Below, one piece after another: positions 5,724-63,606 of a stretch of 64,000 nt of DNA. Below the pieces are notes generated by a model. It saw only the letters and a program-made list of their open reading frames with translations. It ran no database searches and had not been told where the DNA came from. The stretch spans positions 22,452,326-22,516,325 of the forward strand of contig CM034598.1 of NCBI GenBank assembly GCA_020091685.1, written 5' to 3'. A program made the translations under genes and the position numbers. Numbering within the stretch: position 1 is the stretch's first letter; each line of letters begins with the position of its first letter. This stretch comes from Lutjanus erythropterus. Its lineage: Eukaryota > Chordata > Actinopteri > Lutjaniformes > Lutjanidae.

Positions 5724-8700
5724 TCAAAAGTAAGATTCATCACGAGAAGCAGAATATCTAAGCGTCTGTGATCCAGTCTTTGCAGGTGGAGGCTCATCGC
5801 TGCTCCCTTTCTCTCGTTGCACCTGGAAACTTTTCCCCCTCGTCTGTGGTTTCCTCCTCTCCTTCTCCAGCTCCTTCTCTCTCTTCTTTCTCAGCCTCTC
5901 CTCCTCTTTCTCCCGTCTCTCTCGCTCCCGTCGCCTCCTCCTCCTCTCCCTGGAGCTCAGTTTCTCCTCCCCCTCCCCCTCCCCCTCTCCCTCGATGGGT
6001 TCCACCATCCCTGAACCATCACTGAAGTCCTGTATCAGGATTTTGGGGACTTTCATTTTGGCTTTTTTGGGATGCTCTCCTCTCAGTCTCCGGAAGAGAC
6101 CAAAACGTTTAGGGGGTTCCTGTTGTACCTCTGTCCTCTCAGTCGCTTCTTCTGGCACTGATGAGGTGACTTCAGGAGGAGTTTGGGTCTGGTTTACAGC
6201 TTCCGGATTGGACTGTGATTCTGGGTGATTAACTTCTGGTTGAGTCGGAACTGGTTGTGACTGATTGGTTTTCTGTGGCACGGTGAAGAGATCTTCAGAG
6301 AGCCGACGCCCTAACCTGGGCCCCCGCGAGCTGGATGGCTTGCGGATGCAGAAATCTCCTGAAGACCGGCTGCTGCGGCGCCCTGAGGCTTGCATCACGC
6401 CGCTGTTATTCAGCTCAAGTTCAAGGAGGGACTCTTTGTCTTGGACTTGTGGGTTAATGTCAGCGTTTGAGTCTGTTGGTTCAGGAGGAATGAAGACGTT
6501 GTCCTCACCTACAGCGTTGTCTTGAACATTTTCTGGAACATTTTGCATGCTGTCTTTCTCCACAGCAGCCGTCGTTGGCTGGATCTTTGGTTGTTCAGGT
6601 GCAGGTTCCTCAGCGGTGCTCATTTCTACTAAACTTCCTTCAGGTTCTGCAGTGAGATTCACTTCTTCATCCTGCTGTGGAGGTGCTAAGGTGTCAATAG
6701 GTTCTGTTGGTGTTTCCTCCACTTGCGTTTGATCATTTTCACCTTCTGATTGTGCAGTCTGAAATCTTTCTTTCTCTTCCTCTGTAGCTTCAGATGCTAC
6801 TGCATCACGTTCTGTCTCTGAACACCGAGTGAATGCTTCAGTTGGCTTGTTTGAAACTGGTATTTCTGCTTCAGTCTTTGCATCAGTGCCATCCTTTGAT
6901 TGGATGCATTCGGGTGAACATGGTATTAACGTCTCTGCTTCTGGCTTTAATTCTGTTTGTACTATTTCAGCCTTCAAATCATCCTGTGTGGCTGCATTTT
7001 TCTCTACCTCTTCTTGAGTCTGTGCCAGTGCATCAGTTTCTGTCTCTGTTTGGGTGTGCGACTCCGCTTTCACGTCCGTTTCTGCTAATGACTCAGTGCT
7101 GTAGTATTTTCCTTCTTCTATATCTCCCTGCTGTTGCTCTTGTGTCTCTGTCTCTTCTGCGGGTTCTTTGACAGCAGGAGATTTGACTTCACTGTCTGTC
7201 TCTGAGTCTGGACTTGTCTCAGTTGCTGCCTCCGAGACTGTGACTGTGTCCACCTGCGCGTTTTCAGTTTCTGCGCTCTCAGCTGGTTTAATGTCGGCCT
7301 GAATCATCCGTTCCTCGCTTTGGTCTACAGTTTCCTCTGTCTCCACCTCTGTGTTTGTATCTGCAACAGCATCTTTCTGCATGTCATTCTGATTTTCCTC
7401 CACAGCTGCTGTATATTCACTTTCTGCCTCTTGTTTTTCTGTCACAGTATTTGTGTCTTTGACCTTGATGTCCTGGTCCTGGCTTTTAGAGTCCAACTCA
7501 TCTACTGGTTGAGGAATATCTTCCACAGACTGATCTTTGGTTGGTTCTGTCTCCACATTTGTTTCTTCTGTCTGTTCTGGAGGCATTTTTCTTTCTTCTG
7601 TCTCTTTGAGTTCCTCCTCTTCACCAATATCTGCTTCCTCTTGTTCAGTCTGTTCTTTTACGGCCATTTCTTCTACCTGCTCCGTTGGTGTCTTTTGGAT
7701 GTCGTCTTCTACTGTGACTGTTTCTTCTACCTGCTCCGTTGGTGTGTTTTGGACAATGTCTCCTATTGTGACTGTTTCTTCTACCTGCTCCGTTGGTGTC
7801 TTTTGGATGTCGTCTTCTACTGTGACTGTTTCTTCTACCTGCTCCGTTGGTGTATTTTGGACAGTGTCTTCTACTGTGACTGTTTCTTCTACTTGCTCTG
7901 CTGGTGTGTTTTGGACAATGACGTCTACTGTGACTGTTTCTTGTACCTGCTCCGTTGGTGTGTTTTGGACAATGACGTCTACTGTGACTGTTTCTTGTAC
8001 CTGCTCCGTTGGTGTGTTTTGGACAATGTCTCCTACTGTGACTGTTTCTTCTACCTGCTCCGTTGGTGTCTTTTGGATGTCGTCTCCTACTGTGACTGTT
8101 TCTTGTACCTGCTCCGTTGGTGTGTTTTGGACAATGTCTTCTACTGTGACTGTTTCTTCTACCTGCACCGTTGGTATCTTTTGGATGTCCTCCATCTTTT
8201 TAGATTCCTTCTCATCACTTTGACCTGATAGTTTCGTCTCACTCTGTTTCTTATGCTCCTCTGAAAATACATCCTCCTCCTCCTGGACGCCCTGCACCTT
8301 CTTAAAGTTTAACTCAGTCCAGCTCCTTAAGTCCTCCTTCGCTCCCATTGAGAGATGCCGAACAACTCTGCTGCTGCCACTGCCCTCACATTCGCCGGTG
8401 TTAGCCTTTCCCCCTTTCCTCCACCTCTTATGCAGGATGGACGGAGACAGCGACAGAGTGGATGCTGAGCGAGCGAGAGGGACGGACAGGTTGCCTTTCT
8501 CTCTCTCCATCCTGTCACGTTCTTCCTCGTTCTTCCGAGCCTTCGCCCATGCCATCCGGTATCCCAGACAGCGCCCTCTGGGGTCGAAAGTGGATGAGGG
8601 TCTTTCTTTCCTCCACTTTTCTAACTCCTTCTCCGTCTGCTTCTCCAGATCTTTGGCTGACAGCGGAACCGAACACACCTGAGAGAGGAAGAAAAACTTT

Positions 8701-11700
8701 AGTCTCACTTTTGTTTTTACTGTAATTTTCCAAATGTAGACACTTAACAGTATTACAGTTGTACAGTTTTACATCATACTTCATGCAGTACCAAAGAGTA
8801 AATCATTTAATTAGTAATAAATAAGCAGTTTAGCCTGTAGATAGCATAATTATGACAAAATATGTTACATGATAGGCAAATCTAAGCTTGTGAACTCATC
8901 TGGATGTTTATATAGATTCAGATGGGTGACTCATTAAAGGTAAAACCAATAGAGTCATAGTAAGGAACATAATTGTCATCCTCAAGCATCTACATTTAAT
9001 ATATTTTTCCACTCTTGTGTTCAGGATTTCATTTCATTTGGTTCAGTTAAGAACTCAAATTGTGCTGTTTGTTTTGGATTCATATTTAAGCTGTAGTTTT
9101 GGCAGCTTCAAATGCCAGTTGTTGTTTTTTTTGTCCTGAAAGTTGTGTGGATAAAATCATAACATCTGCTGAGCTCACATGTCATCAGCTCAATCTCCAT
9201 GACATCTGTTAAGGACTGTGCGGTACGGTTTAAAGCTCCAGAAAACACCAGTAAGTCAGTCTTCAGTAAGTTAGATTTGTTTTGTTAAATTACTGTACAT
9301 GTGGTCATGTTTAAAAAGAAATTAAATTCAGCTGCCTTGAGGTAACTGGTAGCCAGTAAACAGATTTTCTTCACCACGAGTGCTCTCCTCAACAACTGCC
9401 ATCTGTTTCATGTTTACCTCTGCTACGAAGGCATCGTCGTCTTCATCTTGGATCTGTTCCCTGATGCCCCTCAGCCTCTCCAGAGTCTCCATCTGACCAG
9501 GACACTGCTTCCTCTGCTCAGCCCGGCCCAGTACCCGACGCACCAGCACCGCCGCCACCTGGAGCAACACCCGCACCCCTGTTCCAAAGAGAGGAGGGGC
9601 AAAAGTGGACGTAAATCATGGTATAACAGATAAAGATTTTTTTTACCACAGGCAACGTACCCAAAGTCACTATAACCAGGTGAAAAAGGAATGTTTTTAC
9701 CTTAAATATTATACCAAAATATACAATATAACATGATATAAGCTTCTGATTAATTTATCTAAGAAATTACATATTCTATTCCCTTTCAGCAGATAATTTA
9801 CTTTGTATGACCCACAGCAGCCGATATGGAGGACGTACCATAGCAGAAAAACAGGTCCCAGACTCGCAGCAGTGTGTTGAAGGGCAGGTGACGTGTGAAG
9901 AGACACATCAGCCAGTCTGTGGCGAACATGAGGGGCTCCACTCCATGGTGCTGTAGGTGTTTGTGTGCAGCTGGACACGTCCTTTTCAAAACCCAGGTCA
10001 GCATGGCCGCGTCAAACAGGACTCCCTCCTGCAGGAGCACACATGTTTAGTCAGCTGAGGACATCAGAGATCCAAGAAATTATTTATTTTATGGGTCTGA
10101 CATTTCCAGGGATGCACCGATTGCAAAGCACAGTTTTGCCAATAAACCATGCCAGTGGCAAAGTTATATTTTGTGGTTGTTTGTTTTGTTACTTACTACC
10201 CTTTTTGTGCCAGGGAAACAAAAAATCTTAATTCTAAAAACAGGGAACCCACTGCCCTCTTAAGTCATACCAAAGTTGTGTGCAACCAGTGGCTCTTTCT
10301 CTGAAACAGTGAGTGGGTGTGGTTGCTACTGTTGTCTTAGTCTTGCTGCAAATAAGTAACATAACATTTAGATAGTGCAAAATTGTTGTGACATAGTAGA
10401 CATCCATCCGCCACTACCACTGGCGAATGTCATTTTTCTTGTCAATAGGCTGAGTGCAGTCAACAAGGCAAATATTGGCTGATACTGATGTTTGTTGGTG
10501 CATCCCTAATTTCCCAATAATAGGAAGTTTCCTTGAAAAACTATTTAAAAAAACTAAACAATTTTTGAAATCTTCTGCTGACCTGCTGGACTAAAGTGTT
10601 CTAACTGAACATTGTCTCAATTTTACCTGTGATGAACAACTAATTAAATTTACAACAAACCTCTAAGAAATTATACCGGAGACAGGCAATGGAGCCACAT
10701 GCAGCCCTGGAGCCACAGGGTGCCGAGAAAGCTGAGTTCTCCTGCTCACAGTGCTGGGCCATCCCTGCCTACAAGTACCAGGATGCATTGCACGTGACCT
10801 TCTGATGCCCATTCCCATATTGTTGGGTATCGTCACACTACCTGATAGTGTTTGGTGACACGTCTCCTGGCTACCCAGAAGAGGAGACTAGAAATCCAAG
10901 CTGAAATACCCTGTAGTTCTTCTGTCAAAAACCAACAACATCACTGTGACATCACTGTGACATCACTGGATGCAGAAAGAACAACAGATTTTGCAGCAGG
11001 AGAGCTCAGCTTTCTCAGTCAATATAGCACATACTGAGGAATTTATTGCTTCACATGACAACATTTAAACATCAACACTAATTGGACATCCACACGAGAA
11101 GTGGTGAATTTTCCCTTTAATGAATCTGTAGATGTTTGCTGAATTGTGCTTAATTCATAGCAAAATTAACAGGGTAAACTAGTAGAAATAAGTGCAGTAT
11201 CAGGTACATTATGTTGGTCCTCACCAGCAGAGGGCTGTAATATCCGGGCAGGTACTGCTCACTGATCTGCACCAGACACCAGAAGGCCTCCTGCCAAAGT
11301 CACATGATTTTAGATGGCAGATAAAATGATAGTAAGTCAACATCAGATGCCACAATAGCTTATTGTGTTATCCACTGAAGCGTGTTTCCAGCTGATTTTT
11401 TTTTTATTGAGCAGAAGGGTAAACATTGTAATTGATTGCTACCTCAGCAGGCATGTTCATCAGCAGCACTGCAGCCACAGGCCCCTGCGCCTGGCAGTAA
11501 CCCTCTTCTGGTTGGTACTGAGTGTACGCTTTCAGGACCCGGAACAAACCACGCTGCCTACACACACGCACACACACACACACCACAGTCATCAGTCACA
11601 AATCACAAGTTTAACCCTCCTCATTGTGCTTAGATAAAATTAACTTTTAAACAGATAAATAAAGAAAGCGTTAATGTAAAGATGCTGCTGAGAGACCCTG

Positions 11701-32705: not shown

Positions 32706-35700
32706 ATGAAGGACCGATTGGAGCAGCTTAAAGCGGTAAGTAGCGTCCAGGAAACGTTAAATTTCCTTTCTGTGTCTGTTTTTCTCCAGTATTGTCTGTC
32801 TGTACACTGTGAAGGCCACCTGAAAAATGTTTCTAATGGGAAAAAAAAAAACCGAGAGGTCAAGATAAGCAAAGAAACATTTGACATTTCCACCTTTATC
32901 TAAGCTTCTTGCCTCAATTACTTTAAACATAACATAGTAATAATTTGTGTGTGAGTGCACCATGTGATGACATAACTGATATGATGGATGGAGTAACGCT
33001 GCAGGTTGGAAAGTGATTTTAAGTGGGGATGAAAAGTCAGTCAGACATCATTTTCAGCTGCTTTACATGCAGCCATGCTGTGAGTGCCAGAGGTATGCTG
33101 TGGGGGAATTAATAGTGTAATTGTTAGGAGTATCACTAGATGTCATTTTTAAATGTGTATATTTAGGTTGGTGCTCCTGATTCCTATAATAAGTTGTAGG
33201 AGAGTACTGATAAATCTATTCAACCGTAGGACTGGGCATACTCAGGTGAATATGACATTAGTGGAATCATTTAAGCTGATCTGAGCTCCTAAATGTGAGG
33301 ATATGCCGTGTAATTTTGTTTTATGTAACTGTTTATTGGAAATCTTTGGGTTTTGGATTGTTTCTCAGACCAAAAAAACAAACAAACAAACAAAAAAAAC
33401 ACTTTGAAGTGATGCCTTTTAGTGATTACTCACCTATCAAAAGAAATCTATAATGAAAATATTGGTTACTGCAGTCCTAGTCGTAATTACTGCTAGAAAC
33501 ATGTTCAGCTATTAAGAATATATTATGGGTAAAGCAAAGAGTTGTAAAATGATATATGATATATAATGATATAAGATATAAGACTACAACTAATGATTGC
33601 ATTATTAATTTGTTTATAAAATGTGAAAAAATTGCTTTTTTTGTTCAGCCAACAGTTCAAAACCCAAAGACTCTTTATTTACTATCATAAATGTCAAACA
33701 AAAGCAGCAAATCCTTACATTTAAGAAAGTGACACCAGCAAAGTTTTTTTTGAGTAATGACTGAAATGATTAAATAATCATCAAAAATAGTTGGCTAAAT
33801 TTCTCTTGATTGACTTATTGATTAATCAACAAATCATCGCAGCTGTAGAGTTGTAAAATTCATTCATTCATTCATTCAACCTTTATTTATTTCTTGGGAA
33901 TACATTGAGGGGTGGCCCTCATTTTCACTGATGTCAAGATTACATTAGGCAGCAAAGCAGAAATAGAATAGAGACAAAACAAGAAAAGACAGAGAAATAA
34001 TAAAATGAATAGCCAATAAGAAATCTACACTTGATTAATACAATTCCTAGTTAAAACATGTACATGTAAGAACATTAAAACTTCTAAGCATGTTTTTAAA
34101 ATCTCCCAAAGTTATCATGGACTCACACAAGGAACATGGAGTATTATCTAGTCCTAAGAATAACTACAGTATCTCCAGCTGAAATGGACTGAACCAAAAT
34201 CCTTCATACCTTTGAATTTATCTGTCACAGTAAGATTACAGGTCTTATCCAGCAGCAACAGAGAAGTCATTAGCAACAGAAACATCCTTTGCATTAATCT
34301 TTTTCCTATTCAAAATTGTGCTAATGGCAGTGAATACACTAGCTGCTGGTGGAGGTGAAGCCTTAATCCAATTCTAACTCAAGTCGGGATGTGTTGCCAT
34401 AGCTACCTGAAACTGCTAGCCAAATATTTGCTGTGTTTAAAGTTGTTGAACTGCGGTATCCCCCTCAGGCATCTGTATCTTACACAGCTGGCTCCTTTTT
34501 CAGGGCAAGGAAGTACAGATAGTAAGTGAAATGGGTCAGTCATTTGTTAGGGATTTGACAGTATGCTGTATATGTTCTATATTGTCCTGTTTGCCTCCAT
34601 CCCACTACAATTATTGATCTTTACTTGTCTTTCTCTATCTTTCCTCTTTATCCACACTCACCCACCGCCTTTGTTTTTCCTCATTGAGTTTCCTCTCTAA
34701 TGTTTAACTTACGGGCAGTAATCTAGGCTGTATATTGGTTCCTGTGTGTGTCCGTGTGTGACGGCATAGATTCATATGAATGTGTACACATGCCAACACC
34801 GGCATGGTCACCTGATACAGGCTACTGAAGACTTCAGGAAAGAGAAGCAACACGAAATGCTGCCTTGTAGTTTAACCTGGAGAAATGGCCACATGTGATA
34901 GCTTGGACTGCATGCTGCTTTCTCAGTAGGGTTGCAACTAATTGATTATTTGCATCATGGATTCATCTGTCAGTCATTTTCTCAATTAATTGAATTGTTG
35001 TTTGGTTCATAAAATGTCATGAAATGGTGAAAAATGTTGATCATCATTTCCAAAAGCCAGAGGTGAAGTCCACAACCCAAAGAAACCAGAAAACACTCAC
35101 ATTTGAGAAGCCAAAATCAGTGAATTTGGTCGATTTTTTCCCTTTAAAATGGACTCAGAATGATTAATCAGTTGTCAAAATAGTTGGTGATTAATTTCAT
35201 AATTGCCATCTAATTGATTAATTGACATACGTAACATTGTTAAGAAAAGTGCTATAGAAAAAAGTTTGTCATTATTACAGGTTTATACTGTTATCCTTTT
35301 TTAAAGACAAAGATATAAGATAATGGCTGGTAAGTGTCTTTGAAGTGTTTTTTTCCTTTGGTCAAGCAGGGGGAGAGGAAACAAATACTGGGAAAATCGC
35401 AGATTCTCCCCTTGATTTCGATTATTGAAATTGAAAATCCATTTGGATTAATTAACAATTTGAAACTGTGACACCTATACTGTAGCCATGTCTGCCATAA
35501 TTCATTACCAAGACATTAACATGACAGCAGTTTTGTGTAATTCAGGCTTTCTACTCCATTTTCTTTGTGATATTTTCAAAAGTGCTTTCAGTCAAACTCA
35601 TATCTTCACTTCTGTGTTTCCCTTCACTGTAACACAAGCATGGCAGGCTGCCACTGTTACTTTGCCTCCCCACCTGACTCAGATATCAGCCCAATGAATG

Positions 35701-44700: not shown

Positions 44701-45744
44701 CAGTCTTTATTTTCATCCCGTCAGACATGTGATCAAGATGACGACGAGGTGGAGATCGCTGTGGACAACGCAGCCTTCATGGATGAGTTCTTCTGTCAGG
44801 TCTGTGCAGTAATTTGTGGGCGCTTTACATCTTTTACTTCACCCGTGTGCAGCCTCATAAATACATGTGGAGAATATTTGTGATTGACTTATTTTTTTGT
44901 CATTTGAGATTCATTGTGTGTGTGTGTGTGTTTGTTTCAGATTGAAGACATCAGGAACAGCATTGATAAAATTGATGAGAATGTGGCTGAAGTCAAAAAG
45001 CTTTACTCGGTCATCCTGTCTGCTCCCACATCAGATCAAAGTAAGATAACCGACCACTTTTCCTCCTGTTCCCTGACCCTACTCACAAACGGTCATATTA
45101 AGGATTTTTTTCTTACCTAATTCTGTCCTCTGACTTAAATCAAACTGATGAAAAACAGCAGATCTTTGCCGAGCATCATTTAAAAGTCAACACGATATCA
45201 CTTTATTTGTTCTTAGGAGAATAGGGCTTTCCCATTGTCACTTTTGGCCATGCCGAGTTAAACCGTTTCACGTTGATTTGCATTTCCATTACTTGCTATA
45301 ATGCACCAAGCTGTGCCTTATTGCATCTGAGAGTTGGGCCAAAGTTCTGCTGACCCTGAACCCCCACGCGGGTTGCGGTGATGTCTTGCCAACCAGTGGC
45401 GACCCCCTTCTCCTCCTCAAACAAACGTGTGTTGTGAGACTCAACTCATGTTGAGTGTATATGCAGGTTTTTCAAACATGACTAAACCCCATAAAATTGG
45501 CTATTGACCCCTTTTCCATTGCCAGTAGTCCTGTTTTTTTCCCTGATGTGCACTGGAAAGCCTAGACTCAACTTGTGTCTGTGCAGGAGAACAGAGAGAA
45601 ATCCCCTCGCTACCATTTATAACTATATTGCTGCACGTCTCTTTCTTCATAGAAACACAGGATGACTTGGAGGCAATCACCAATGACATAAAGAAGATGG
45701 CCAACAATGCAAGAAACAAACTCAAGAGTGAGTCTGCCTACCAC

Positions 45745-45808
<64 letters not shown>

Positions 45809-46885
45809 CTTGTCAGTGACAATAATGAGGATGTTTTATCTGAAATGTTCCTGAAGAAAACTACAATGAGATGATGTATAGTTGATTTTAAGCTGAATCA
45901 TAAATCAGCTGTTTGAATTGTTCCACAGCCATCGAGAGGAATCTGGAGTCAGAGGAGCAGGAGAGGGTGTCGGCTGACATGCGGATACGTAAATCACAGG
46001 TAAATGATGTCCATCTTAAGTTTCAGGTGGCCTTGAGTTAACACTGGTTTCTTAGGGAACCTTTAATATGCAGAATGTAAACACTGTTGATATTTTGTGT
46101 TAGGCCTTATTTATTACTGTCCAGGGAATTTAAGATCTTTTTTTTTAATTAAACTCAACAGGCATGATCAAATTTAGATACATTATTGCCAAAGCACTGT
46201 AGGAATACAAGGAATACAGGAATGCTTCCTCTTTAGCATTCTTTTTATTCTTAACCATTCTTCTTCTTATTATTATTTCATTCTAATTTTTCTTCCATTC
46301 TTCTTCCATTTTTCTTCTTCTATTCTTCTTCTGTCATTCTTCTACCGTTCTTCTTTTACCATTCTTCTTCTTCTATTCTTCCTTTCTTATTCTCCCTCTT
46401 CATCTCCCATTCGTCATCTTCCATCTTCATCCTCCTCTTCTTCTAATTATCAAAAATATTAACATTATACATTTAGTTTCTCTTTGACATGAAAATGTAA
46501 GTTTTACATTTTTTAGATGTTTCTCAGTTCTGATGTTTCTGCCTGACAAATTTACAGTATATCCATTAAGTGTATTCCTGTGCTAATTAATTTTTTCTTG
46601 TTGTCTCCCAGCATGCAGTGCTCTCCAGGAAATTTGTGGAGGTAATGACAAAGTATAATGAAGCCCAGGTGGACTTCAGGGAGAGGAGTAAAGGACGTAT
46701 TCAGAGACAGCTAGAGATCAGTGAGTGACTGCCACATGAGTAACGGCCATAAAGTTATGTGAGAGTCCCATGGTCTTTTTTGTCATTAAATCTTTCCTCT
46801 CCTTTCCAGCTGGAAAAGCAACAACAGATGACGAACTGGAGGAGATGTTGGAGAGTGGCAATGCTGCTGTGTTTACTGCAGGGGT

Positions 46886-46924
<39 letters not shown>

Positions 46925-49900
46925 TGTGGATGCATTTCTGCTATTTTTAACTGCACCCTAACATTCACCTCGCCTTGACACTGATCATCATGTGGTTGAA
47001 CTGAGAGAAAGCCAATTTGTCAGTTGCTCAGTAAAACTAAAAATGCCTCACATCAACTGGTTAAAGATTAGCTGTGCTCGTGATCTGGCCTCGAAGTCAG
47101 TCTGCTGTCTTGTGCCTAACATGTCATTTGACACGATGTCCAACAGCCAACAAGCAATTCTTAAAAGAAAGAAATGCAGACTGAGGACAGGTGAAGATCA
47201 TGAACACATTAAATGCTCAATGACAAGAATGACACATCATAAAAGAGAGTGCTATATTCTGTTATACTGGAGCACCAATGTGTTGCAACCGATTAGACAA
47301 CATTTTATGAAAACGGTGAACTGCTACTGAAGCTGGGGTTTCCTAAGCCTACTCAAACTGCTAACACAATCCTTAAACACAACTATGACTATGAAAAACC
47401 AAACAGAAATGGCAGAATTTAAGAGTAAATGGAAGCAGAAGTTTAAGTAGCTGGAATATAACACATCTAAGGACATGATATACTGTAATGTGTGCCACCA
47501 GTTTCCTCAACTAGCCAAGATGTCTAGCTTGTTTTTCATGGGAAACGATGCCGTCAGGAAACACCACATCACAATTCCTGGGAAAAGTGGAAAACACAAG
47601 TGTCACAGTTAAAGAAGGCTGTGTTAAATTGCCTGACCGTATTGTTTTTACATAACTTTACATTTGGGCCACCAGAAATGTACTTTGGCCAACAAATTAT
47701 GGAGCTTGGTGGCCTGTGTTGCCAGTGCTTAAAAATCTTAGTCTATATTCCTGTGATTTCTTCTTTTTAATGATAATTTATTGACTTTTTTTCATGATGG
47801 CACCAGAATCACAACTGTCGAAGCACACGTTTAAAGTTAAACATGACGTGAAGGCAAACTTTAACGCAGTGATGCAGCAATAATCAGTATTCTGAAAAAG
47901 ATCATATTCCCAGTCAGCTGTTTACATGGCTAATAATAATGAATATTTCTTTAATATTTCCATTAACGTGCAGCTGTGCAAACTATTATGGATGCTTCTT
48001 TCAGTCAAAATTGTATAGTAGTCAAAGGTTTCCACTGGTAGCGGACTTATTTGACTGTGCAAACACAGCCTCCCTCTTTCACTCATTTAAACACCTGTCT
48101 GAAAAGGTCAGCATTGCAATATTTAGTACTGGAAAACTACTGTGCATGTAAACGTAGCCACTTAAACATTTTATTAGGTTTATTTTTCTGAAGTAGGATC
48201 CATTTGGTAAGGTTGGGAGCCTGCACCTACGGGACCCATGGGCTGCATCAATGTAGTGCTGTTATTCTAAGTGCTTTAAAACTAGTCTCTCATTCACCTG
48301 GTCGCACACATGCTCGCATATTAAGCTACCTTGCAGCTCACTGGCCTGACCATAGGGAACAACTGGAGCTCGATGGTTTGCTTAAAGACACTTTTGATAA
48401 GAGGAGTCATTAATCAAACCTCACAACCCTGCAATTATCAGATTCTAGATACTGAGCCACAGCCACCCCTCTTTATATCTAAAATATTTCTTAGTCAGTG
48501 AGCATTGGTTGCCAGGTTTTATAAAATGAGCTCTTATTTCTTGTTGAAGCACTGGTAACACTTTTCTGCGGGAGGATTTTATGCATTTCTCTGTATCACA
48601 ATGAGACACGTTCATTTTCAGTTCCTTATGATTTAGCTATGTGCACTTTCTGATACAAACGAATTCATATCATGGGCCATCTCTGCCACACAGATCAGAA
48701 GAAATAAAGGTAAAATAGTAGTAGTAGTAACAGCAAACCTCTCCCCTGCACAGATTGTGGACTCTGGCATCTCTAAACAAGCCCTGAGTGAGATTGAATC
48801 CAGACACAAAGACATTGTCCGTCTGGAAAGTAGCATCAAGGAGCTGCACGATATGTTTGTAGACATCGCCATGCTGGTGGAGAGCCAGGTACAGTGCGTC
48901 CACCTGCCAGTCATTTCATCCACCCACCAGTTACTTCAGGAACTCTTCATTTATCTAATTCATTTATTCACTCTTTGCATTCTTAACCTTTCTTCATAGC
49001 TTTGCGTTCCTCCCGACAATATTCAACTCTTTTTCTACTGTGTATTTCTCTTCCCGTCTCCACTGTGGTCTGACTATCAATCTACGTCTGTCTCTGTTTC
49101 CTCTTTTCCAGCTCCATGCATTTCTTATACCTCTCTTTATTCTCTTCTGCCACCACCACCACCTCCATCTCATCACCCAACATTGATGGAACCAACATGA
49201 ATGCATTTAGTAAGATGTATGAATAAGGCGTCATCGTAGACATCAGACTCCACACTAGAATGAACACAAAACACATATTGTTGAACAGTCACTGTTTGTA
49301 TATGCACACTTAAGTCTAATAACCACATATTTCCTGATGCTTGCGCCATGCTTACTGAGGAGAAGTCTTGTTTGAGGTAAGGGCCACACTCCTTCTGTTT
49401 GTGTTGTGTGATTTGTTTGTCTTGACCATTTTTATTTCCAGGTCTTAGTTTGAAGAGGTTTATTCCAAAGGAAATTCAGGATTAACATGAATATGAATGC
49501 TTCTCACATGAAATTAAAAACAGAACTCCTCATGAAGTCATTACTGAAGCTGTCTGAAGTCCTTAACTAAAACAACAGAGTAATAAATACAAAGTGTATG
49601 AGGAATATGTGCAAAACCAGTGCCTAACAGGATAAACAATAAAACTAAGAAAACTTAAGTAAAATAAGTAACTAAAATAGAAAAAAGTATTGGTAATGAT
49701 ATTGAAAAATAATAAAAACTAATATTCCAAATGATTTTGAAAAGTAATATTAAAAATAATGTCTAAAAGTAGTGTTGCACATGATATTGATATTATTGTT
49801 CTCAGTGTTTGATGTTTCAGCTGTCCTTCCTGCAGAGGGGGAGGAGTTATGTAGTTGAAACTAGGGCTGCACTATCTTGGTATAAAAGTCATATTGTAAA

Positions 49901-51360
49901 TATTTTGACTGAATTGGCGACATGTGATATGATAAGAGGAAATGATCAGTTTTGCATTACAATTTTACAAAATTACAATTATTTGTGCAGCTCTAGTTTA
50001 AACCAATGCACTGTGCTTTCCTTCTGATCGTTAAGCGTTAAGCTCTGGATCTCACTGTTTGTTGTGTTTTTTTTCAGGGTGACATAGTAGACAACATTGA
50101 GCAGAATGTATCCAAGTCAGTGGACCACGTTTCAGTGGCTAAGGAACAGACCAAAAAGGCTGTAAGGTACCAGACCAAAGCACGTAAGGTAATGTAATTT
50201 AGCCAACTGTTGCACCAGTCTGCTCTTGACTTCTTCCTGTTTTTTTTTTCTGCTTATTTTCTAGACACATTTTTCACTGTTTGACACATTTTGACCACAC
50301 AGTGTGCATACGCATCACACCCCCCCTTGCACTACAGGCACATTATCGATCGTTGCATCCTGTGTGCTTTGCTTTTTGTTTCACTCTCTCTCTTTTTCAT
50401 TTGCTTTCTTTTGTTACTTTTCGTCACCTCTGACATCGCACCCCGTGTTAGGGTGGAATGATTGACAGGATTGAGAGCAACATGGACCAGTCAGTGGGCT
50501 TTGTGGAGCGGGCCGTAGCAGACACTAAAAAAGCGGCAAAGTTTCAGCAAGAGGCTCGACGTGTGAGTGACCAAAGTCAGGAAGAGCGGTGCGGTTTCCC
50601 AAAAGCAACGGAAATAATCATTTAGAGTAGAACAGCAGTGACTTGATTGATTTTTGTTGTTGTCTTTAACAGGAAATACAACCAAGCGACAGACAGGGAA
50701 AATGAAATGGACAAAATTTGATGCCACGGGACAAAGATGGAGAGATCAAAATCTGGCCTTGTAGTAGAATATGATTAAGCAGTACAATCCGTGTGGCTTA
50801 AGTTTTGCAACAACACAATGTGATGTAATTCGGTAATTCGTATTTGTTTTCCAATAAAATACATGCAAGAATTACAATACATTCCTGGTAAATAACTTTG
50901 CAACAAAAACGCTGTAATTGTAGTGCTTTACCTTTCAATTATCACAACGAAAAACAAAATGTTTGTAATTATGATATGTTGCAAAGTATGTTCTGCTCTG
51001 CAGTGTTTTAGTATCTGAACAACTGGATCAAATTTCATAGTGTCACCAGTTCCTAAAACAGCACGCCTTTTTTGGTGGGGGGTAAACTCCCAGTTACTTT
51101 ATGGAAAGTGGAAAGAACTAAAATTCCTCTTTAACACCAAGATGCTTTTGGGAAACCTGCCTGACAATGTGAAGTCCATCCCCGCCATCAAGACCCTGAC
51201 CTTCACCTTGATCCTGCCCTGTGATGACCCCCGTCCCTCCTACCTGCTGCTCTGTTCCTGAGCCTCCACCACCATGTGGCCTGTGGACCCCTGTGCTTTG
51301 AAAACCACTGACCCCCCCCGGCTCCAAGACCCAGAACTAAGACCACTACCCCACACCTAC

Positions 51361-51414
<54 letters not shown>

Positions 51415-54400
51415 ACAGCTCCCACACTCTTTTCTCTCCAGCTTTAACCTTTACTTTGTCTGTGTTTACAGTTGACTCATGACGGCTGCATTATTCCTCG
51501 GTTTTGTCTGTTTGAAGATGTTGCTCATGAGCTTCAGGCTGTTTGTGTGAAAATAACATTTGTATTAACAGGTTAACATAAAGACTGGGTTGCTTCAACG
51601 AAGATTTAATTTAATCTATACGTAGCTCTTATCAGACTTTAGTAAAACTAGGTTTAAAATAAGTAAAAAAGAGCTCTGTAGCACAGTCTACATGTTGAGT
51701 TTAATCAGCATGGTGATGCTTGACTAAAATAAATTTGAGTATTTTTGAGACCTAGTAAGTATACCTAGCTAAAACATCAAACAAAACCTTACATTGTTTG
51801 CTAGCTAGCTAAAATGTTGACAAAAATTTAAATTGTTTTCCAGCTAGCTAAAATATAAAAAAACCTTTACATTATTTGCTAGCTACTTATAAAGTTAGCA
51901 AAATGTTGCGCCATTTGCTTGTGAGCTAAAAAGTTATTTCAGGGTTCTTTTGAGGTTGAATTCTTAATTTTGAGATAGTTTGGTGCAACATAAATAATAG
52001 TTAACTTGACTTAAAAAACGAATCCTTGTTGCTGCAAGCCAGCCAGAGTTTACACTTGTGCTACAACAAAACTGGTTTATCAGACTGTAGCAAGGTCGAT
52101 GTACTGAGTTTGTGTGGTTACCAAGCTACAGAGAGTTTTCAGGATATATGATACAGCCATTGTTGCCATATACAGTACATTTTCCTTTATGCATAACTAG
52201 TAAGGAAGGAGATATCATAATTGTTGCACGTATAGATTAAAGATATGCTGTACTTATTGTTGTTTTCCCACCGAGACTGGTCCTCATGGTACTGTATGTA
52301 CTTGTATGTTCCCAACAGAAAGTGGTGATAATAGTGGTGATTGTGCTGGTCTTGCTGGCAATACTAGCTCTGATAATCGGGTTGTCAGTGGGATTGAAGC
52401 AAAGCTGATGAGCTATTTGAATAAGAGGAGAGCTCAGGGTGAGTAAATAACCACTGTAGTGCCACAGTGGGTGTGGGTATATGAAGCATGCTTTGGAAAA
52501 GGGTTTGCACCTTCTTTCTGTCTATCCAGAGGGCTTACTTGAGGTGTGTTTGTCTGTATTTGAAGTTCTTGGGTGTGTGTTTTATTTCTCCTATTCTGTA
52601 GCACTCGCCTCTGGTTACTGCTGAACAAACAAAGCAGTGCTAGAAGTCAATTAGCTTCAGCTGGTGTTTGGTTTGTGGGCTCATTTCGGTGCTCGTGTTC
52701 CCCATCATTAACACTATTCTCTCCTTTTTCTCTGTGTGTCTCCCTCTCTGTAGAAGATGATCATTATTGGTGCACTCTGTGCTGTGCTTGCTCTCATCAT
52801 CCTCATCGTCATCCTCACCCAAACACTATAGCAGGACTGCCATCATCCACTCTATCCTGTCCTCCATCAGCTGTCCCACCAAAGAAATGGATTGATAATC
52901 ACTCCATGTGGATATTATAACCCACAGAAAAGAAACCTGAAGGTCTAGTTGTATGTAATCTCTTAAGAAAAAGAAGACCTACGAGACCTGTGATGATCAT
53001 AAAAACTTTTTGTCCCAGTTAGAACTGTCCTTCCTGGCGTGTTAGTGACTCCCTCAGTTTGAGGATGTTCTACTGCAAATGAGGAAATGAGACTGACGCC
53101 GACACGAGGTACAATACCTGTTGTATTTCTGCGGAGGTGGGAAAAGGGAATTGAAAAATAACTGATGACGACGTCACTCCGGTGTCACTAAACATTTCAT
53201 TGTTCAACACTCGGTGCCAAAGAATCTGTCAGGAAATGTTTGTTGTCTGAAGTCTAATGTCCAGTAAGTCTGACCCATTGGCTGTAAATAAAGATGGACG
53301 ACGATGTCTCCACTGTACAAAGATGAAGCAAGAATATCCCTTGACTTTTTTGGGAGTCGTCTTGATGTCCATCTTTATATAAGTCACTGATCTGACCCTT
53401 GTGAAGCCCTGTCAGAGCACATCACCTCCCGCATCTTTTTGTTTGCCTTTATGAGCCTTGATACATTTTGTGATTGAAAAGCTAGCTACTGTATGTTCAC
53501 TGTTATTGGCATTTTGTTGTTTTTTCTGGGAAGAGTTCCAGCACTTCCACATTTTAAAACATGTCTCATTTCTGTAATGAAGCTCAAATGATCATGTAAA
53601 TAACTGAATTGTTATTTTGAGTGTTGTGGAGTTAGCAGTCAGTTCCTTAACTTGAAGAGGATCGGTGTGCTCACTTATGATTCTTCAGTGGACCTGCTTT
53701 TTAAATGTGAAGGGTGGTGCTTATAGAAACACATCTCACTGACAGGTGGAGCTAAGATAAGCAAACAAGCAAGACAGAGACGGGCGAGACAAGTTTTAGC
53801 TAAACAATGAAACATCTGGGAGGAATGCCTGAACATCTGTTTTGCATCTTTGCTAACCTGTCACAGTTTTAGCCATCTTGACCTTTTACATGCAGAGACA
53901 TGATTGTTTCTCTTGTTAAAATGCTGTAAAAAACAAAATATTTTAATGCTAAAAGGTGTAAAAAGAGACTGTTAGTAACACTAGCTTTTTTCACCATATG
54001 TGCCAGGATAGTCTTTGTATTTATTATACTTTTTGATGACGTGTTGCTAATAAAGTTACACAAACAAGATGAGGTGTAGATGGACACTCAAACATGCAGT
54101 GAAGCCTCCCAGACTGGTGGCTCTTTATTCATATGAGATGCATTTCCTGGCTTGTTTTAGATCTCATAATAAATAACTAGCTGTACAACTCAGTTACCAG
54201 TTTATTAGGTACAGACATCTGAAATTAATGCGCTCTAATACAGCAGCCCTGTAATAAATTCTGTGCTCCTGAAGGTTATAAAGTTCACTTTTTGTTTAAG
54301 CAGCTTCAGAGATATGTTGGTTAAACTTTCTGAAAAACTTGGAGGCTGCATCTTGTGATGCTTTTGAATTGTATTGTATTATACCAGAGCTGCGATTATT

Positions 54401-55890
54401 GGTCAATTTAACAAAAAATTAGTTAGCAAATAATTTAAATAGTTTCAGTCATTTTTAAAGCAAAAATGTCAAACATTTGCTGGCTCCAGCTTAGTAATTT
54501 GAAGACATTACTTTAAGCTCTGGGAAACTGAGACGAGCATTTTCCACAATTTTTTGATATTGTCTAGACTAAAGTTATTTGCAGCCCTATTGTCGTCGAT
54601 ATTTAGAATTGATAAATTGCGTAATTCTTCAAATAAAACTGCAAATCGTTCGATGGCTCCAGTTTCTCAAATGTGAGCATTTTCCGCATTTCTTGACCAT
54701 ATTTGAGAGTAAACTTTTTGTTTTTCCGTAAAAAAAAAAAAAAAAAAGTGAAAACATTTGTCAGTTGCAGTCATACATTATGCTTAAGAGGTTTGTCTTA
54801 TAATTAGTCTGTCTTCATTTATATAAACATAATATTCAGCACATATCTAAAAGAGTTGATTTTATTTTTCCAATTTTTAGTCCCTGTTGTCAGAAACACA
54901 ATGATGAAAATCAGTATATGAACTTAATTGACTTCATCTGTCCCTGACAAACACTGATATGTTGTATTATAGAAATATGTCAAAAAAACAAACCAAATGA
55001 CGGTAGGGTTTATTGCAGGGGTGTTGAATGAGGCTGCATTAGTTTTAGCTTGATGTACCTAATAAATTGGCAGTTGACTTTCACTCTGTTTGGTCATCAT
55101 CATTTCATCAGGCCTTTTCTTCTTGGTAGAGGGAAGGCGTCGAACTGAACTGAAACCACATGCTGTCACCAAATGGCTTTAATGAATCAGTTAAAGCAGG
55201 TGTTTCCAGCTGTGCCTTCAAGGTCCAAGATGTTCCATTTTATTCAGCAGGTATCGACCACATCTGGGGGGGGTTTGTATTGCAGAGACATCATTTGAGA
55301 AGTTTAATGCACGTTATGAAGGTCGCTGTCTCTGAGAGAAGCCTTTGTTTCAGTCAGACCAGAGGCTGAATGGTGCCTTTAATTCTGGCTGTGCTGGGAG
55401 CACTTGAAAGTGAGAGCCCCCCCCCCTCTCTCCCCTGCTTGGTCCTTTGACCGGGCAGTCTGCTCGTTTGGCTTCTGTCCTCTTATGTTCAACCCTGATG
55501 CTTCTATTCAGGCCTTTTAATTCACACCACTTTAGCCATCAGCGTGGGCTGTAATGACTGAACAAGGAGAAAAACTGAAGCTGTTGTACACTGTTTAATG
55601 ATTTTAATGGAAATTAAAGATTTTATGTTTTTTAATGACTTGTTCACAGTGTTTCCTTTGTGATCTCGTGCCTGTCTGCTGTGCTTTGTAAATCTTTAAC
55701 TGAATTTTAACACTTTTTGATGACTGATGAGCTGTGTGACTGTTTTTTATGGGAGGTCGTAGCTGTTGTCAGCAGATTGTTGATACACCATGTTAACCAC
55801 TGTGTTGTAAAGTACAGCTTTTAAAGGTTGGTGCCAAAGAGGAGGTAAGAGTGTTTATGTTTTCTCACCTTTCTTCTCGCTTTATACACA

Positions 55891-55921
<31 letters not shown>

Positions 55922-56148
55922 TATCCTCTGTGATCCTTGGTTCTCCTTTTGCTCGGTCATTTCCTCAAACCAGCGTGTCCATAAATGTGAATAATTGTTC
56001 TGTGTTTGTCTGTGTCTCATTACACTGACCACTGTTGTTGACTACTGTCTATTTTTGACTAAATCCACAGAAAAAGATGATGATTACGTTGTGCTGTGCC
56101 ATCATTGGAATCGTTGGGTTCTCCTATCTCTACAGCTTCTTCTCATAA
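32706..56148 (+). CDS. stx3: Syntaxin-3, t-SNARE with alternative SNARE and anchor exons
   Basis: Encodes a plasma-membrane Qa-SNARE that pairs with SNAP-25/23 and VAMP in exocytosis; STX3 serves apical membranes and ribbon synapses in vertebrates. Constant exons: 32706-32735 ([10 protein letters not shown]), 44725-44799, 44941-45040, 45653-45727, 45929-45999, 46612-46720, 46810-46883 and 48754-48888, all in phase. Then either 50078-50188 or 50452-50562, followed by one of three anchor exons: 52319-52408, 52754-52831 or 56071-56148. With the first SNARE exon and first anchor the product is 289 aa, the same as human STX3A. The Habc domain lies in exons 2-6. The linker LE (RQLEITGK), open/closed switch region and SNARE motif (about 188-253) are clear. 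The zero-layer glutamine is residue 223, the last residue of exon 8. Intron 1 is 12 kb. Confidence 0.94.
33582..33850. mobile_element. Family A element
   Basis: Begins GACTACAACTAATGATTGC and ends AAATCATCGCAGCTGTAG. Contains the family core (AAAATGTGAAAAA, CAAAGACTCTTTATTTACT, TAATCATCAAAAATAGTTG). Confidence 0.7.
33857..34110. repeat. Degenerate interspersed repeat
   Basis: (ATTC)n followed by AACCTTTATTTATTTCTTGG and ACATTGAGGGGTGGCCCTC resembles the CTTTATTTA-type repeats common in fish. Boundaries are uncertain. Confidence 0.35.
34926..35224. mobile_element. Family A element
   Basis: Begins TAGGGTTGCAACTAATTGA, contains AAAATGTCATGAAATGGTG and AAGCCAGAGGTGAAGTCC, and ends in ATTGATTAATTGAC. 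The right terminus is decayed. Confidence 0.65.
35912..36611. mobile_element. Family A element split by a family G insertion
   Basis: Left half 35912-36050 (ACAGGGCTGCAACTAACAGT, CCTAAAGCCCAAGATGATG, AAAGATAGTTAGTGTACTG). Right half about 36524-36611 (AAAGCAGCAAATCCTCACA, TTGCTGCAGCTGTAC). The halves are collinear with intact family A copies, so the 36062-36523 element entered later. Confidence 0.65.
36062..36523. mobile_element. Family G inverted-terminal element (462 bp)
   Basis: Left end TACGAGGAGTGGGCAATCTG and right end GTCTGATCGCCCACCCCTGTA are inverted repeats over about 20 bases with few mismatches. No transposase frame is present. Confidence 0.7.
37716..38360. mobile_element. Family H element, possibly composite
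   Basis: CAGGCCTGAACAATT at the left and AATTGTTCAGCCCTAG at the right are inverted. The interior (about 37820-37960) holds GTCATGGTGGCAGCTGGC and CTCAGCAGCACTTTCCAA, which read like part of another dispersed fish repeat. Confidence 0.5.
39030..39331. mobile_element. Family A element
   Basis: AGAGCTGTGACTAACCATT at the left, ACGTAACTCTGCAGT at the right, with the core AAAATGTCAGAAAATGGTG, CAAAGCCAAAGGTGACGTC and ATTCAGTTTACTGCCA. Confidence 0.75.
40228..40345 (-). mobile_element. Retroposon-like 3' end, minus orientation
   Basis: Matches the inverse of 63811-63912: ACCTGCACACAGTGCTGGT, CTGTCTGGTTTT, GGACAATAAAGACAGAACTG. The shared sharp edge and AATAAA-like tail suggest the 3' end of a LINE- or SINE-type element. 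Confidence 0.5.
40485..40785. mobile_element. Family A element
   Basis: TAAGGCTGCAACTGCCAGTG at the left; GATTAATCGACTAATTCAG at the right. The internal CAGAAGATGCTCACATTTGA and GAGGCTGGAGCCATC are typical of the family. Confidence 0.65.
40845..41407. mobile_element. Fold-back element, family B (563 bp)
   Basis: GAAAATTCAGTCATTATCTA is inverted at 41345-41385 (GTAGATACAGACTAAATTTTC). AACACTGCTGGAGTTTCA pairs with GTGAAACTCCAGCAGTC. CTACTCACCCTCATGCTG pairs with CAGCATGAGGGCGAGTAG. Non-coding relative of 23296-23947, here inside stx3 intron 1. Confidence 0.8.
42786..43232. mobile_element. Fold-back element, family C
   Basis: TTAAAGGGGCAGTTCATTC opens it. The end carries GTCTAGATGGATATTTAACAC and GGAAAATATGTATTTTTGAT, as in the other copies. 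GGGAGTTGCTGAGTTTTTG and AACTCTGCAGCGCACAC are its inverted inner arms. Confidence 0.7.
43686..44158. mobile_element. Family D element
   Basis: TTAAAGGAATAGGTCATTTT and TAGAAATACAG at the left match, inverted, CTGTATTTCT-type sequence at the right (TTGTATTTCTCAAAATAATG). The inner GCTTAGCTTAG, CAGCCTGGCTCTGTCCA and AAATCCACCAGCACCTTTAA are hallmarks of a repeat seen widely in percomorph fish. Confidence 0.6.
44403..44530. repeat. Degenerate interspersed repeat
   Basis: TAGAACACCTTTCCACAA then AAGTGCTTTACACAAAACC resembles the GCACCTTTAAAA...AAAGTGCTTTGACA repeat at 15030-15070. Confidence 0.4.
45747..45807 (+). repeat. (AC)n microsatellite
   Basis: About 30 perfect AC units starting 20 bases after the donor of stx3 exon 4. 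Confidence 0.95.
46239..46442 (+). repeat. TTC-rich pyrimidine tract in stx3 intron 5
   Basis: Degenerate array of CATTCTTCTTCT-like units over about 200 bases on the plus strand, roughly 170 bases upstream of the acceptor of exon 6 (46612). Confidence 0.8.
46888..46928 (+). repeat. (GT)n microsatellite overlapping a splice donor region
   Basis: The donor GTAAGT of stx3 exon 7 (46884) runs straight into about 17 GT units. Confidence 0.95.
46929..48753 (+). other. stx3 intron 7, holds a transposase zinc-finger relic
   Basis: 1.8 kb intron. A broken zinc-finger fragment lies at 47421-47615 (own entry). A 112-codon open frame at 46992-47330 shows no recognisable family. Nothing else is evident. 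Confidence 0.55.
47421..47615 (+). pseudogene. Relic of a TTF-type/hAT-associated zinc finger
   Basis: Conceptual translation of the plus strand gives KSKWKQKFK, a stop codon, then [16 protein letters not shown], followed by [17 protein letters not shown] and KSGKHKCHS. The spacing (W, two Cys in CNVC, then LF.GN...R..HI..H-like and KSGKHKC) resembles the N-terminal zinc finger of ZNF862-like and hAT-type transposase proteins. It contains an in-frame stop and has no ATG. This is a decayed fragment; what lies before it is not recognisable. Family assignment is by pattern only. Confidence 0.5.
48889..50077 (+). other. stx3 intron 8
   Basis: 1.2 kb intron before the alternative SNARE exons. A T-rich run (TTTTTTTTCAG) precedes the acceptor at 50076-50077. 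No repeat or gene recognised. Confidence 0.55.
50078..50188 (+). CDS. stx3: stx3 alternative SNARE exon 9a
   Basis: 111 bases, phase 0 at both ends, residues 224-260. Starts [18 protein letters not shown] and ends YQTKARK. Supplies heptad layers +1 to +8 and the juxtamembrane basic segment. Reads like the STX3A version. It cannot be joined to exon 9b without duplicating the half motif, so the two are almost certainly mutually exclusive. Confidence 0.93.
50452..50562 (+). CDS. stx3: stx3 alternative SNARE exon 9b
   Basis: 111 bases, same phase and length as exon 9a and only 263 bases after it. Encodes [20 protein letters not shown] and ends FQQEARR. Reads like the STX3B (neuronal/retinal) or syntaxin-1-like version, with the MIDRIE.NM.QSV pattern. 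Acceptor TTAG at 50448-50451, donor GTGAGT at 50563. Confidence 0.93.
51364..51412 (+). repeat. (AC)n microsatellite
   Basis: About 24 perfect AC units. Confidence 0.95.
51588..52042. mobile_element. Family F element with TAGCTAGC minisatellite
   Basis: GGTTGCTTCAACGAAGATT at the left and AATCCTTGTTGCTGCAAGCC at the right are inverted repeats. The middle (about 51750-51930) is a degenerate tandem array of about 50 bases per unit: TTACATTGTTTGCTAGCTAG followed by CTAAAAAGTTAACAAAA-like sequence. A longer relative lies at 56575-57982. Confidence 0.65.
52319..52408 (+). CDS. stx3: stx3 anchor exon 10a (STX3A-type C-terminus)
   Basis: 90 bases, 29 residues then TGA. Begins [12 protein letters not shown] and ends [11 protein letters not shown], a hydrophobic anchor close to the STX2/STX3A C-terminus. 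A strong donor (CTCAGG/GTGAGT) lies 30 bases after the stop at 52438/52439, so this exon can also splice onwards within its 3' UTR. Confidence 0.92.
   Translation, partial: KVVIIVVIVLVLLAILALIIGLSVGLKQS
52754..52831 (+). CDS. stx3: stx3 anchor exon 10b
   Basis: 78 bases, 25 residues then TAG. Acceptor CTCTCTGTAG at 52744-52753. Begins [16 protein letters not shown] and ends ILTQTL, an uninterrupted membrane anchor. It is preceded in phase by either SNARE exon. Poly(A) signals at 53287-53292 and 54049-54054 would end its 3' UTR. Confidence 0.8.
   Translation, partial: KMIIIGALCAVLALIILIVILTQTL
53287..53292 (+). terminator. Poly(A) signal, proximal, stx3 10a/10b isoforms
   Basis: AATAAA 456 bases after the exon 10b stop. 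Confidence 0.55.
54049..54054 (+). terminator. Poly(A) signal, distal, stx3 10a/10b isoforms
   Basis: AATAAA in GTTGCTAATAAAGTTAC, about 1.2 kb after the exon 10b stop. Family A repeats begin 330 bases beyond. Confidence 0.55.
54385..54774. mobile_element. Two abutting family A elements
   Basis: First copy CAGAGCTGCGATTATTGG to TTTGCAGCCCTAT (54590). The second starts directly there and ends TGTCAGTTGCAGTC at 54774. Both keep the CTGGCTCCAG/TGGCTCCAG...AAATGTGAGCATTTTC core. Confidence 0.6.
56071..56148 (+). CDS. stx3: stx3 anchor exon 10c
   Basis: 78 bases, 25 residues then TAA. Acceptor AAATCCACAG ends at 56070. Begins [19 protein letters not shown] and ends YSFFS. The KKxMI.CC start resembles syntaxin-1/STX3B anchors with juxtamembrane cysteines, which are typical palmitoylation sites, but the last eight residues are aromatic-rich and unfamiliar. 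A donor CAG/GTAAAA at 56162/56163, 14 bases after the stop, could splice to an acceptor TTTCTGTAG ending at 58085. Confidence 0.85.
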   Translation, partial: KKMMITLCCAIIGIVGFSYLYSFFS

Positions 56149-56574
56149 AAGGTTTTACACAGGTAAAAACAAAAAACAAAAAACAAAAAAAAAAAAACAC
56201 CTGCATCAGCCTTTAACACTGTAACTGGGTTTCACCAACAAAGATTAAAGCTACTACCAAAAGTTTTTCCACTGGTCATGAAATCATCTCAGTTTATTAC
56301 TGATGCCTCTATATAACCTACATAAGCAAACAAGACAAGAAGATGATGTATTTTGATTAAGTTGTTCCTCATGTCTGCCACTGGGTTGGATTCTCCTCAA
56401 AATCGGATGAAACAAACTTGTGTTTACATTTTTTCCAGGTAAAGTTACAGTGAGTAGTACAGTAGCCAGTTAAAGGGAAGAAGGAGCAGATTTTTATTTT
56501 GATAATTTTATTATCGATGTTATAATTTGTGCTTACGGCAGAAGAAACACTACCACTTTTGTCCACAGGTGCCT

Positions 56575-60909: not shown

Positions 60910-63606
60910 ATGGAGGATCCTCATACACGGTACAGCAAACGGCTGGTGAGTAACTTAACAAAACTGTTAGCTAGGGCTCCGGAACACTTGTTTTATGTTT
61001 ACAATACAGCTGTGAAGTGTTTTTAAGTCCAACTTGTGTGTGTAATGTTAGCCCCTTTAATACACATGAAACAATGTGTGTTAAATCTATGTATTTGATC
61101 GTATTGGGCCACTTTCTCGTGGCACATTGTGTCATGGCAGTGGTCCTCTCCTCTCTGTTTTGCTTGGCACCTTAATGAGGGTAATGAACTTGTCTAAAGG
61201 TTCAAGAAAGAGTCAAGTTCACTGTCTAACCTGCAACATTTGTGCTGTGACCTTGCTTCACCTCAACAATTTTATCCCCGTGTTGTAAACTAATTAACGC
61301 AATACTTTTATGCTTCTCAGTATGTACTCTGTATCTCACTAGGGGTATTAATAATATTGATACCTCATAGACCTGCAACTAATGATTATTTTAATAGTCA
61401 ATTAATTGGCCAACTATTTCCTCGATTAATAGTTGTTTGCAAATAAAATGTCAGAAAATGTTGAAAAATAATTATCACTGTTTTCCAAAGCCCAAGATGA
61501 CATCCTCAAACGCCCCGTTTTGTCCACAAACCAAAGATAATAAAATTATTGTTGTAGAGGGGTAAAGAAAGTAGAAAATTTGGAATCAGAATTTTGACTT
61601 TTTTTCTTTAAAAAAAAAAAATTGCTCAGACCAATTAATTGATTATCAAAATAGTTGTTTTGATTGATCTAGTAATTGATTGTTTGATTAAGTATTGCAA
61701 CTTTAATACCTAAAAATGTATTTAATACGGCTAATTTCTGCAATTGTTGATAAGATTTTTTTAAGAACATGTCTAGGCCTATTTGTTGAACACAACAAGA
61801 CAGGGCTGGCTGCAACTAATGATTATTTTCATTGTTGATTAATCTATTCATTGTTTTCTTGATTGGTCTATAAAATGTCATAAAATTGTGAGAATACCAG
61901 TCAGTGTTTCCCAAATCCTAAAATGACATCCTTTGTTGTTTTGCCCACACCCCAAAGGTAATTTAGTTTACTGTCATAGAGGACTAAAGAAACCAGAAAG
62001 TATTACAATTTAAGAAGCTGGAATCTGTGAATTTTTGACTTATTTGCTCCCTAAGAAATTGGTCAAACCAATATATCAAATCTGAAAATAGTTGGTTATT
62101 AATTTAACCTTTGTTGTTCTACACCAAAATTTAATAAAGGCACCCAATAAATTATTCCTTAATTGTAGCTACTTGATCCCCTTTGTCGTTTTTATTACTT
62201 TATGACATCAGTGGGTGTTGCTTTCATAAAACTGAATTGTTTTCAGTTGCAAATAAATATGTGTTGTGCAGCCCTTGGTTATGAGAGTGAGGAGCATCAG
62301 AGTTTAGATAATACCACATTTGTGGTAAAGGGTTGGGGGTGGGGAGATCTGAGAGCGGGGGTGTTGTGCTTGATCCATCTGTCTAGCCAAGCAGTTCTGC
62401 ATAGGATGAATGGCAGGAGGGGAGTAAAAGGGGGGGGGCAGTGTGTGGAAGATTAACCCCAGCTATTGTAATGCTGTATTGTTTGGTTCCCACATGAACT
62501 GATTTGGTAACTCGCTGCCTGACTGATCAGCTTGGATTGATTTATTGTGATTTTATCCTTGTCTCGGGTGAAAGCATTAGGTTTGTCATAGCAGTTTTTG
62601 TTCCTTTTTACCACTGTGATATAAGGGACAGATCCCATGAGTGTAACCTCATGTCTTAGCAATTAGGAAGAACATTTTAAAAAGACACTCACAAATGTTG
62701 CATTTATACGAGATTCAAATGAGCTTGGTTTTGTATCAATCACTCAGGAGCTGAGTTTTCCTGCCAAGGGTAGTTTGGTGAAAAATTATTGATACTAGCA
62801 CTAGATACTAGTAGTCATCTAGATTCTGAGTTAGAGCACACTTTTTAGAATTTACCTTTTTCTTTGCAACATGTCCATTAAGTCCTTTATATTATGTTAC
62901 TTTCTGTGATCTTGACCAGCATTGCTGTCTATCTGATAGGCTGCTGTAACCCAGTTTTTGTCATGCACTGAAATATCTTACCATAATTCTCACTGCCAGT
63001 TATTCCAGCCCTTGCCTCCTGCCCTCTTTCTGTTTCTCGCTACAAATCCTATTTTTTCATGTCTTCCATAGAGCCTAACAAAAACCTTCTTTTGTCCTCA
63101 GCGTACGGGTACGCGGCGCCGCTACCAGGACGATGGAATCTCAGATGATGAAATTGAAGGGAAGCGAACGTTTGACCTGGATGAAAAGTTACAGGCTTCC
63201 CGGTTTAACTGTGACTTGATCAAACACATGGAGGGTAAAGGTAAGATCTTTCCACAAGTAAACTGGGAGTAAACTGGGAAAAGGGATTTTTTGGAATATA
63301 ATTTCAGTGAAACATTACATGAATATATCTGATGCCATGTACAAGTAGTTAAGACAAGCTGTTTGTTCTCTGTTCTGTGTTGTTCGATAATATTATTTTT
63401 TAACATTGTGTTGATTGGAGAACAGTTTCTGCCAGTCCTTTCTGGTTAATGTAAATTTTGTTGTTGAAAGTGTGTGTTTTTTATGACGGTTTAACTGTAT
63501 CACTGTGTCTGTGTGTCTCCTGTCTAGATTTCACATTTGAATACATTCAGAGAGAAGGACTCAGGGATCCCATTGTCTTTGAGACAGGGGAAGGCCTTGG
63601 AATACA
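60910..63606 (+). CDS. kdm2a: KDM2A-like lysine demethylase, first coding exons (gene continues right)
   Basis: Encodes the N-terminus of a JmjC/CXXC/F-box histone H3K36 demethylase. Exons: 60910-60945 (MEDPHTRYSKRL), 63102-63240 and 63528-63606, joined in phase and leaving the window in phase 2 before the donor GTAAGT at 63607. Exon 2 gives RTGTRRRYQDDGISDDEIEG then KRTFDLDEKL, and exon 3 gives FTFEYIQREGLRDPIVFE then TGEGLGIQ. These match the conserved start of KDM2A/KDM2B; the short MEDPHTRYSKRL start and linkage with rad9a/ndufs8 favour KDM2A. The demethylase, CXXC, PHD and LRR parts lie beyond the right edge. The start codon follows an acceptor CTAG at 60901-60904, with a non-coding exon upstream. 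KDM2B cannot be excluded from 80 residues. Confidence 0.88.
60946..63101 (+). other. kdm2a intron with two family A elements
   Basis: 2.2 kb intron with two family A elements at 61368-61700 and 61804-62110 in the same orientation. The rest is unique. GTTGGGGGTGGGGAG and a G-run lie near 62330-62440. Confidence 0.6.
61368..62110. mobile_element. Two family A elements in direct orientation
   Basis: Starts TAGACCTGCAACTAATGATT and GGCTGGCTGCAACTAATGAT. Both have AAAATGTCA, CAAAGCCCAAGATGACATC or CCAAATCCTAAAATGACATC, and an ending CAAAATAGTTG/GAAAATAGTTG before ATTAATTTAA. Confidence 0.75.

Follow-up and report, generated by a model that had tools for sequence, protein, structure and literature searches.

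Alternative membrane anchors are established for the syntaxins STX3A and STX3B (PMC11119284, PMC11476516, and PMC8263458, as excerpted). In mammals, the two proteins share exons 1–8 and differ in their SNARE halves and anchors, which are encoded by exons 9A and 10A in STX3A and by exons 9B and 10B in STX3B. In human STX3S, exon 10A is skipped and 9A is joined to 11A, which, in the excerpted text of PMC8263458, encodes a short non-hydrophobic tail (KLISLQTGVATLVFR) and yields a soluble protein. Mammalian STX2 has two splice-chosen anchors, and the available part of PMC4946901 places the alternative anchors of mouse Stx2 and exons 8a and 8b of Caenorhabditis elegans unc-64 under CELF control, exerted in unc-64 by UNC-75/CELF.

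The fish stx3 gene described here resembles mammalian STX3A/STX3B in having common exons 1–8 followed by alternative SNARE halves and anchors, and differs in carrying an extra anchor exon, 10b, that lacks a counterpart in that mammalian set. Like unc-64 it has apparently splice-chosen C-terminal anchors, three rather than two, and relative to mammalian STX2 it has an additional SNARE exon and anchor (9b and 10c). Skipping of exon 10a would, as in STX3S, join 9a to the next exon; in the fish gene that exon encodes an anchor instead of a soluble tail. STX3S is reportedly the subject of a 2018 study by Giovannone. Our searches of an open-licence library turned up no description of a third STX3 anchor, and those with anchor letter strings and for epimorphin isoforms returned nothing matching; gene-prediction databases may already list such a transcript.

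Anatomy of the stx3 gene and its anchor exons

The window, that is, the whole 64-kb stretch of DNA analyzed (C8:22452326-22516325), carries on its plus strand an intact fish stx3 gene with three in-phase anchor exons. The genome it belongs to measures 938 Mb and, judging from the genes present and their duplicates, is probably that of a teleost. Exon 1 is coding from an ATG (32706–32735; 10 residues; donor GTAAGT). Exons 2–8 span 44725–48888 (exons 2–5 at 44725–44799, 44941–45040, 45653–45727, and 45929–45999; exons 6–8 at 46612–46720, 46810–46883, and 48754–48888) and maintain an open frame when joined to exon 1, giving 223 open codons after in-silico splicing of exons 1–8. Two alternative SNARE exons of 37 codons each follow on the same strand, the in-frame 9a (A type, 50078–50188; acceptor 11.1 bits, donor 7.0 bits) and 9b (B type, 50452–50562; acceptor 5.1 bits, donor 7.2 bits), with acceptors scored by an ad hoc matrix. 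Predicted proteins are 289 aa long with 10a and 285 aa with either 10b or 10c. The full-length isoforms 9b-10c and 9a-10b matched Pfam Syntaxin (PF00804) and SNARE (PF05739) above cut-offs; 9a-10a, tested as a 66-aa tail, matched SNARE, and the top PDB match for 9b-10c was Syntaxin-1A (E 4.8e-100). Habc and SNARE domains, together with common exons 1–8, alternative 9A/9B exons, and A and B anchors, identify the gene as syntaxin-3.

Exon 10a (52319–52438) is coding to a stop at 52408 and has a donor after 52438, the coding part of 10b lies at 52754–52831, with AATAAA at 53287 and 54049, and 10c (56071–56162) is coding to a stop at 56148, with a possible donor after 56162. All three are plus-strand exons in phase 0 that encode 29, 25, and 25 residues, respectively, before the stop. 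An earlier note on this DNA had placed the coding parts at 52319–52408, 52754–52831, and 56071–56148, correctly to the base. It also held up in describing 25 to 29 hydrophobic residues before a stop (all three exons pass the hydropathy filter below) and a start in the phase left by the SNARE exons: 9a and 9b each join in frame to 10a, 10b, or 10c. Its description of every acceptor as good fits 10b clearly (10.4 bits), 10a moderately (5.5 bits), and 10c weakly (3.3 bits). The anchors differ in cysteine content, with none in 10a, one in 10b (residue 9), and two in 10c (residues 8 and 9, the CC to which that note had drawn attention).

Our strict filter, whose thresholds were chosen with the anchor exons already known, required an acceptor of at least 3 bits, K or R as first residue, a stop at codon 22–32, a 17-residue hydropathy of at least 1.9, and no charge at residues 3–20. 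In the window, exactly three plus-strand sites passed (10a, 10b, and 10c) and none on the minus strand. Sixty dinucleotide shuffles (3.84 Mb) produced a single site, and with a second shuffle seed 2 of 46,574 shuffled acceptors passed. In 80 kb surrounding four paralogous genes (on C3, C19, C4, and C20; both strands searched), the filter returned five sites, every one a syntaxin anchor. A looser version (acceptor at least 4 bits, hydropathy at least 2.2, first-residue and charge rules dropped) also picked up unrelated frames in the window, returning five plus-strand sites, which included 10a and 10b and missed 10c, and four minus-strand sites. Comparison of the anchor region with viral_contigs gave 116 pattern matches, none of them a relative.

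Elsewhere in the window, a 54-bp (18-residue) unit is repeated 9.6 times with 89% matches at 7667–8185 on the minus strand, inside a long open frame (5727–8768) that lies near TBC-domain exons (RabGAP-TBC pieces at 9801–10046 and 11407–11595, minus strand). The first exons of a gene that we take to be kdm2-like lie at about 60913–63606 on the plus strand; an 85-residue piece of it had no Pfam match, and a relative lies downstream of a second stx3 copy on C3.

Identity of exons 10a and 10c

Comparison with human exon sequences assigns 10a as the fish counterpart of exon 10A, the STX3A anchor, and 10c as that of exon 10B, the retinal STX3B anchor, in line with the two STX3 anchor types that the earlier note took as established. 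Exon 10c begins KKMMITLCC, and its relation to the pieces of human 10B given in PMC8263458 includes the cysteine pair. It has an in-exon stop and ends in aromatic residues; human 10B was compared over the probe length only, and an exon 11B has also been named in the human gene. This aromatic end, unlike anything in the compared part of 10B, is what would favor reading 10c as a third kind of anchor, novel and rich in aromatic residues, with 10b as the STX3B anchor. We consider that assignment highly improbable, since the comparison with the human exons, in which 10c relates to 10B, contradicts it. The second stx3 copy likewise carries a 10c-type exon, aromatic end included, as the only anchor found there. 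The earlier note had singled out the anchor at 56071 as the unusual one; by these alignments the extra exon is instead the middle one, 10b.

Between the window gene and the C3 copy, the 25 codons of 10c comprise 8 identical, 3 synonymous, and 14 nonsynonymous, too short and diverged a set for a ratio, and the proteins encoded by exon 9b and its C3 counterpart are identical. No recognizable relics of 9a, 10a, or 10b were found in the 30 kb surrounding the C3 copy. Exon 9a is 57% identical to each of the SNARE exons of the stx2-like, stx1-like, and stx4-like genes.

Exon 10b and its relatives

Downstream of the 10a stop lies a strong donor, and the next exon is 10b, at the place of human exon 11A. 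Because of this donor, 10b is probably spliced as a 3′ UTR exon of 10a messages. A search for similarity between human 11A and 10b found none, and 10b was not classed as an STX3S tail exon. The same donor, and the fact that human 11A at the same place encodes no anchor, would agree with 10b being a mere 3′ UTR exon behind 10a. Its hydrophobic frame would then have arisen by accident or belong to an anchor silenced recently, and the gene would be limited to the two known protein forms. We regard this as unlikely. An accident is disfavored by the rarity of such frames among shuffled acceptors, and in 4,000 runs of simulated neutral change the 10b anchor pattern survived in 37%, 14%, 6%, and 1.4% at 0.1, 0.2, 0.3, and 0.5 substitutions per site, respectively. 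The speed of this decay makes it unlikely that 10b is an old fossil, though it may still be an exon silenced only recently. A further argument against a UTR-only role is that a gene on C9, which we infer to be stx2-like, has an anchor at the equivalent place.

In that gene, a pair resembling 10a and 10b lies at 3789 and 4049 (reversed L035+L036), compared with 52319 and 52754 in the window; the order recalls the two splice-chosen anchors of mammalian STX2. Both fish genes thus have a second anchor exon in the same phase right behind a 10A-type exon, and this position, together with weak sequence similarity, suggests that 10b may share ancestry with the second anchor of the stx2-like gene. Exon 10b adjoins 10a in the same phase at a distance of 315 nt, as would a recent tandem copy of 10a made within stx3, an origin to which we give very little credence.

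Elsewhere in this genome, a stx1-like gene on C4 carries an additional SNARE-like exon and an additional anchor ahead of its usual CC anchor (L021:5007–5117 and 8694–8771). In the region at C18:13367821 (reversed L039+L037+L038, 2280–2486), the last SNARE exon of a divergent stx2-like gene continues into a basic tail that terminates at a stop codon. No donor above 4 bits was found in the stretch after this exon, and a loose scan of the next 9.7 kb gave four hydrophobic frames, none judged syntaxin-anchor-like; the gene is perhaps a soluble syntaxin or decaying.

A broader and doubtful possibility is that the window gene retains the full tail set (9a, 9b, 10a, 10b, and 10c) once present in the shared ancestor of vertebrate STX1, STX2, and STX3. 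Its paralogs would each have lost part, the stx2-like gene keeping 9a-10a-10b, one stx1-like gene keeping both modules without 10b, and the C3 stx3 copy keeping 9b-10c, and the soluble-tail exon of human STX3S would be a decayed former anchor.

Proposed splicing scheme and likely effects

The observed gene anatomy, the reading frames and splice-site scores, the assignments of 10a and 10c, and the similar 10a-10b order in the stx2-like gene lead us to favor, with some confidence, a scheme of alternative C-terminal exons after common exons 1–8. The 10A and 10B counterparts, 10a and 10c, would normally be used with 9a (STX3A) and 9b (STX3B), respectively, and 10b would be an extra anchor whose role depends on 10a. 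In ordinary STX3A messages, which include 10a, 10b would form the 3′ UTR; skipping of 10a would instead join 9a to 10b in frame and yield another A form, also anchored in the membrane and with one anchor cysteine. The fish gene can thus probably make one more protein version than expected, and 10a skipping would produce a differently anchored protein, in contrast to the soluble one of human STX3. For 10b, we infer a coding role in mRNA and a pairing with 9a rather than 9b. The intron between 10a and 10b contains two copies of UGUGUGU (52574 and 52733), described in the available part of PMC4946901 as a motif of mouse CELF2 and UNC-75, and no copy occurs in the three remaining introns between 9a and 10c; with 70 sites on the plus strand of the window, the pair is a lead only.

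As the excerpted parts of PMC9183232 describe, palmitoylation and spontaneous fusion depend in part on the syntaxin anchor and on the residues that precede it. There, STX3B, which carries EARRKK, failed to rescue release in neurons lacking STX1 and migrated as a poorly palmitoylated protein would; release was restored when the glutamate of this motif was replaced by lysine. EARRKK is also present at the 9b-10c junction of the fish gene, and a 9a-10b junction would give KARKK. By analogy, the three anchors may differ in sorting or palmitoylation.

One protein body with three natural anchors would offer a ready-made comparison set. The C3 stx3 copy, in which only B exons were seen, raises the possibility of divided labor between the duplicates, along the lines of B forms (retina in mammals) versus A forms (epithelia). 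For human STX3S, the fish gene suggests a testable origin, in which the soluble protein arose when an anchor still present in fish was lost.
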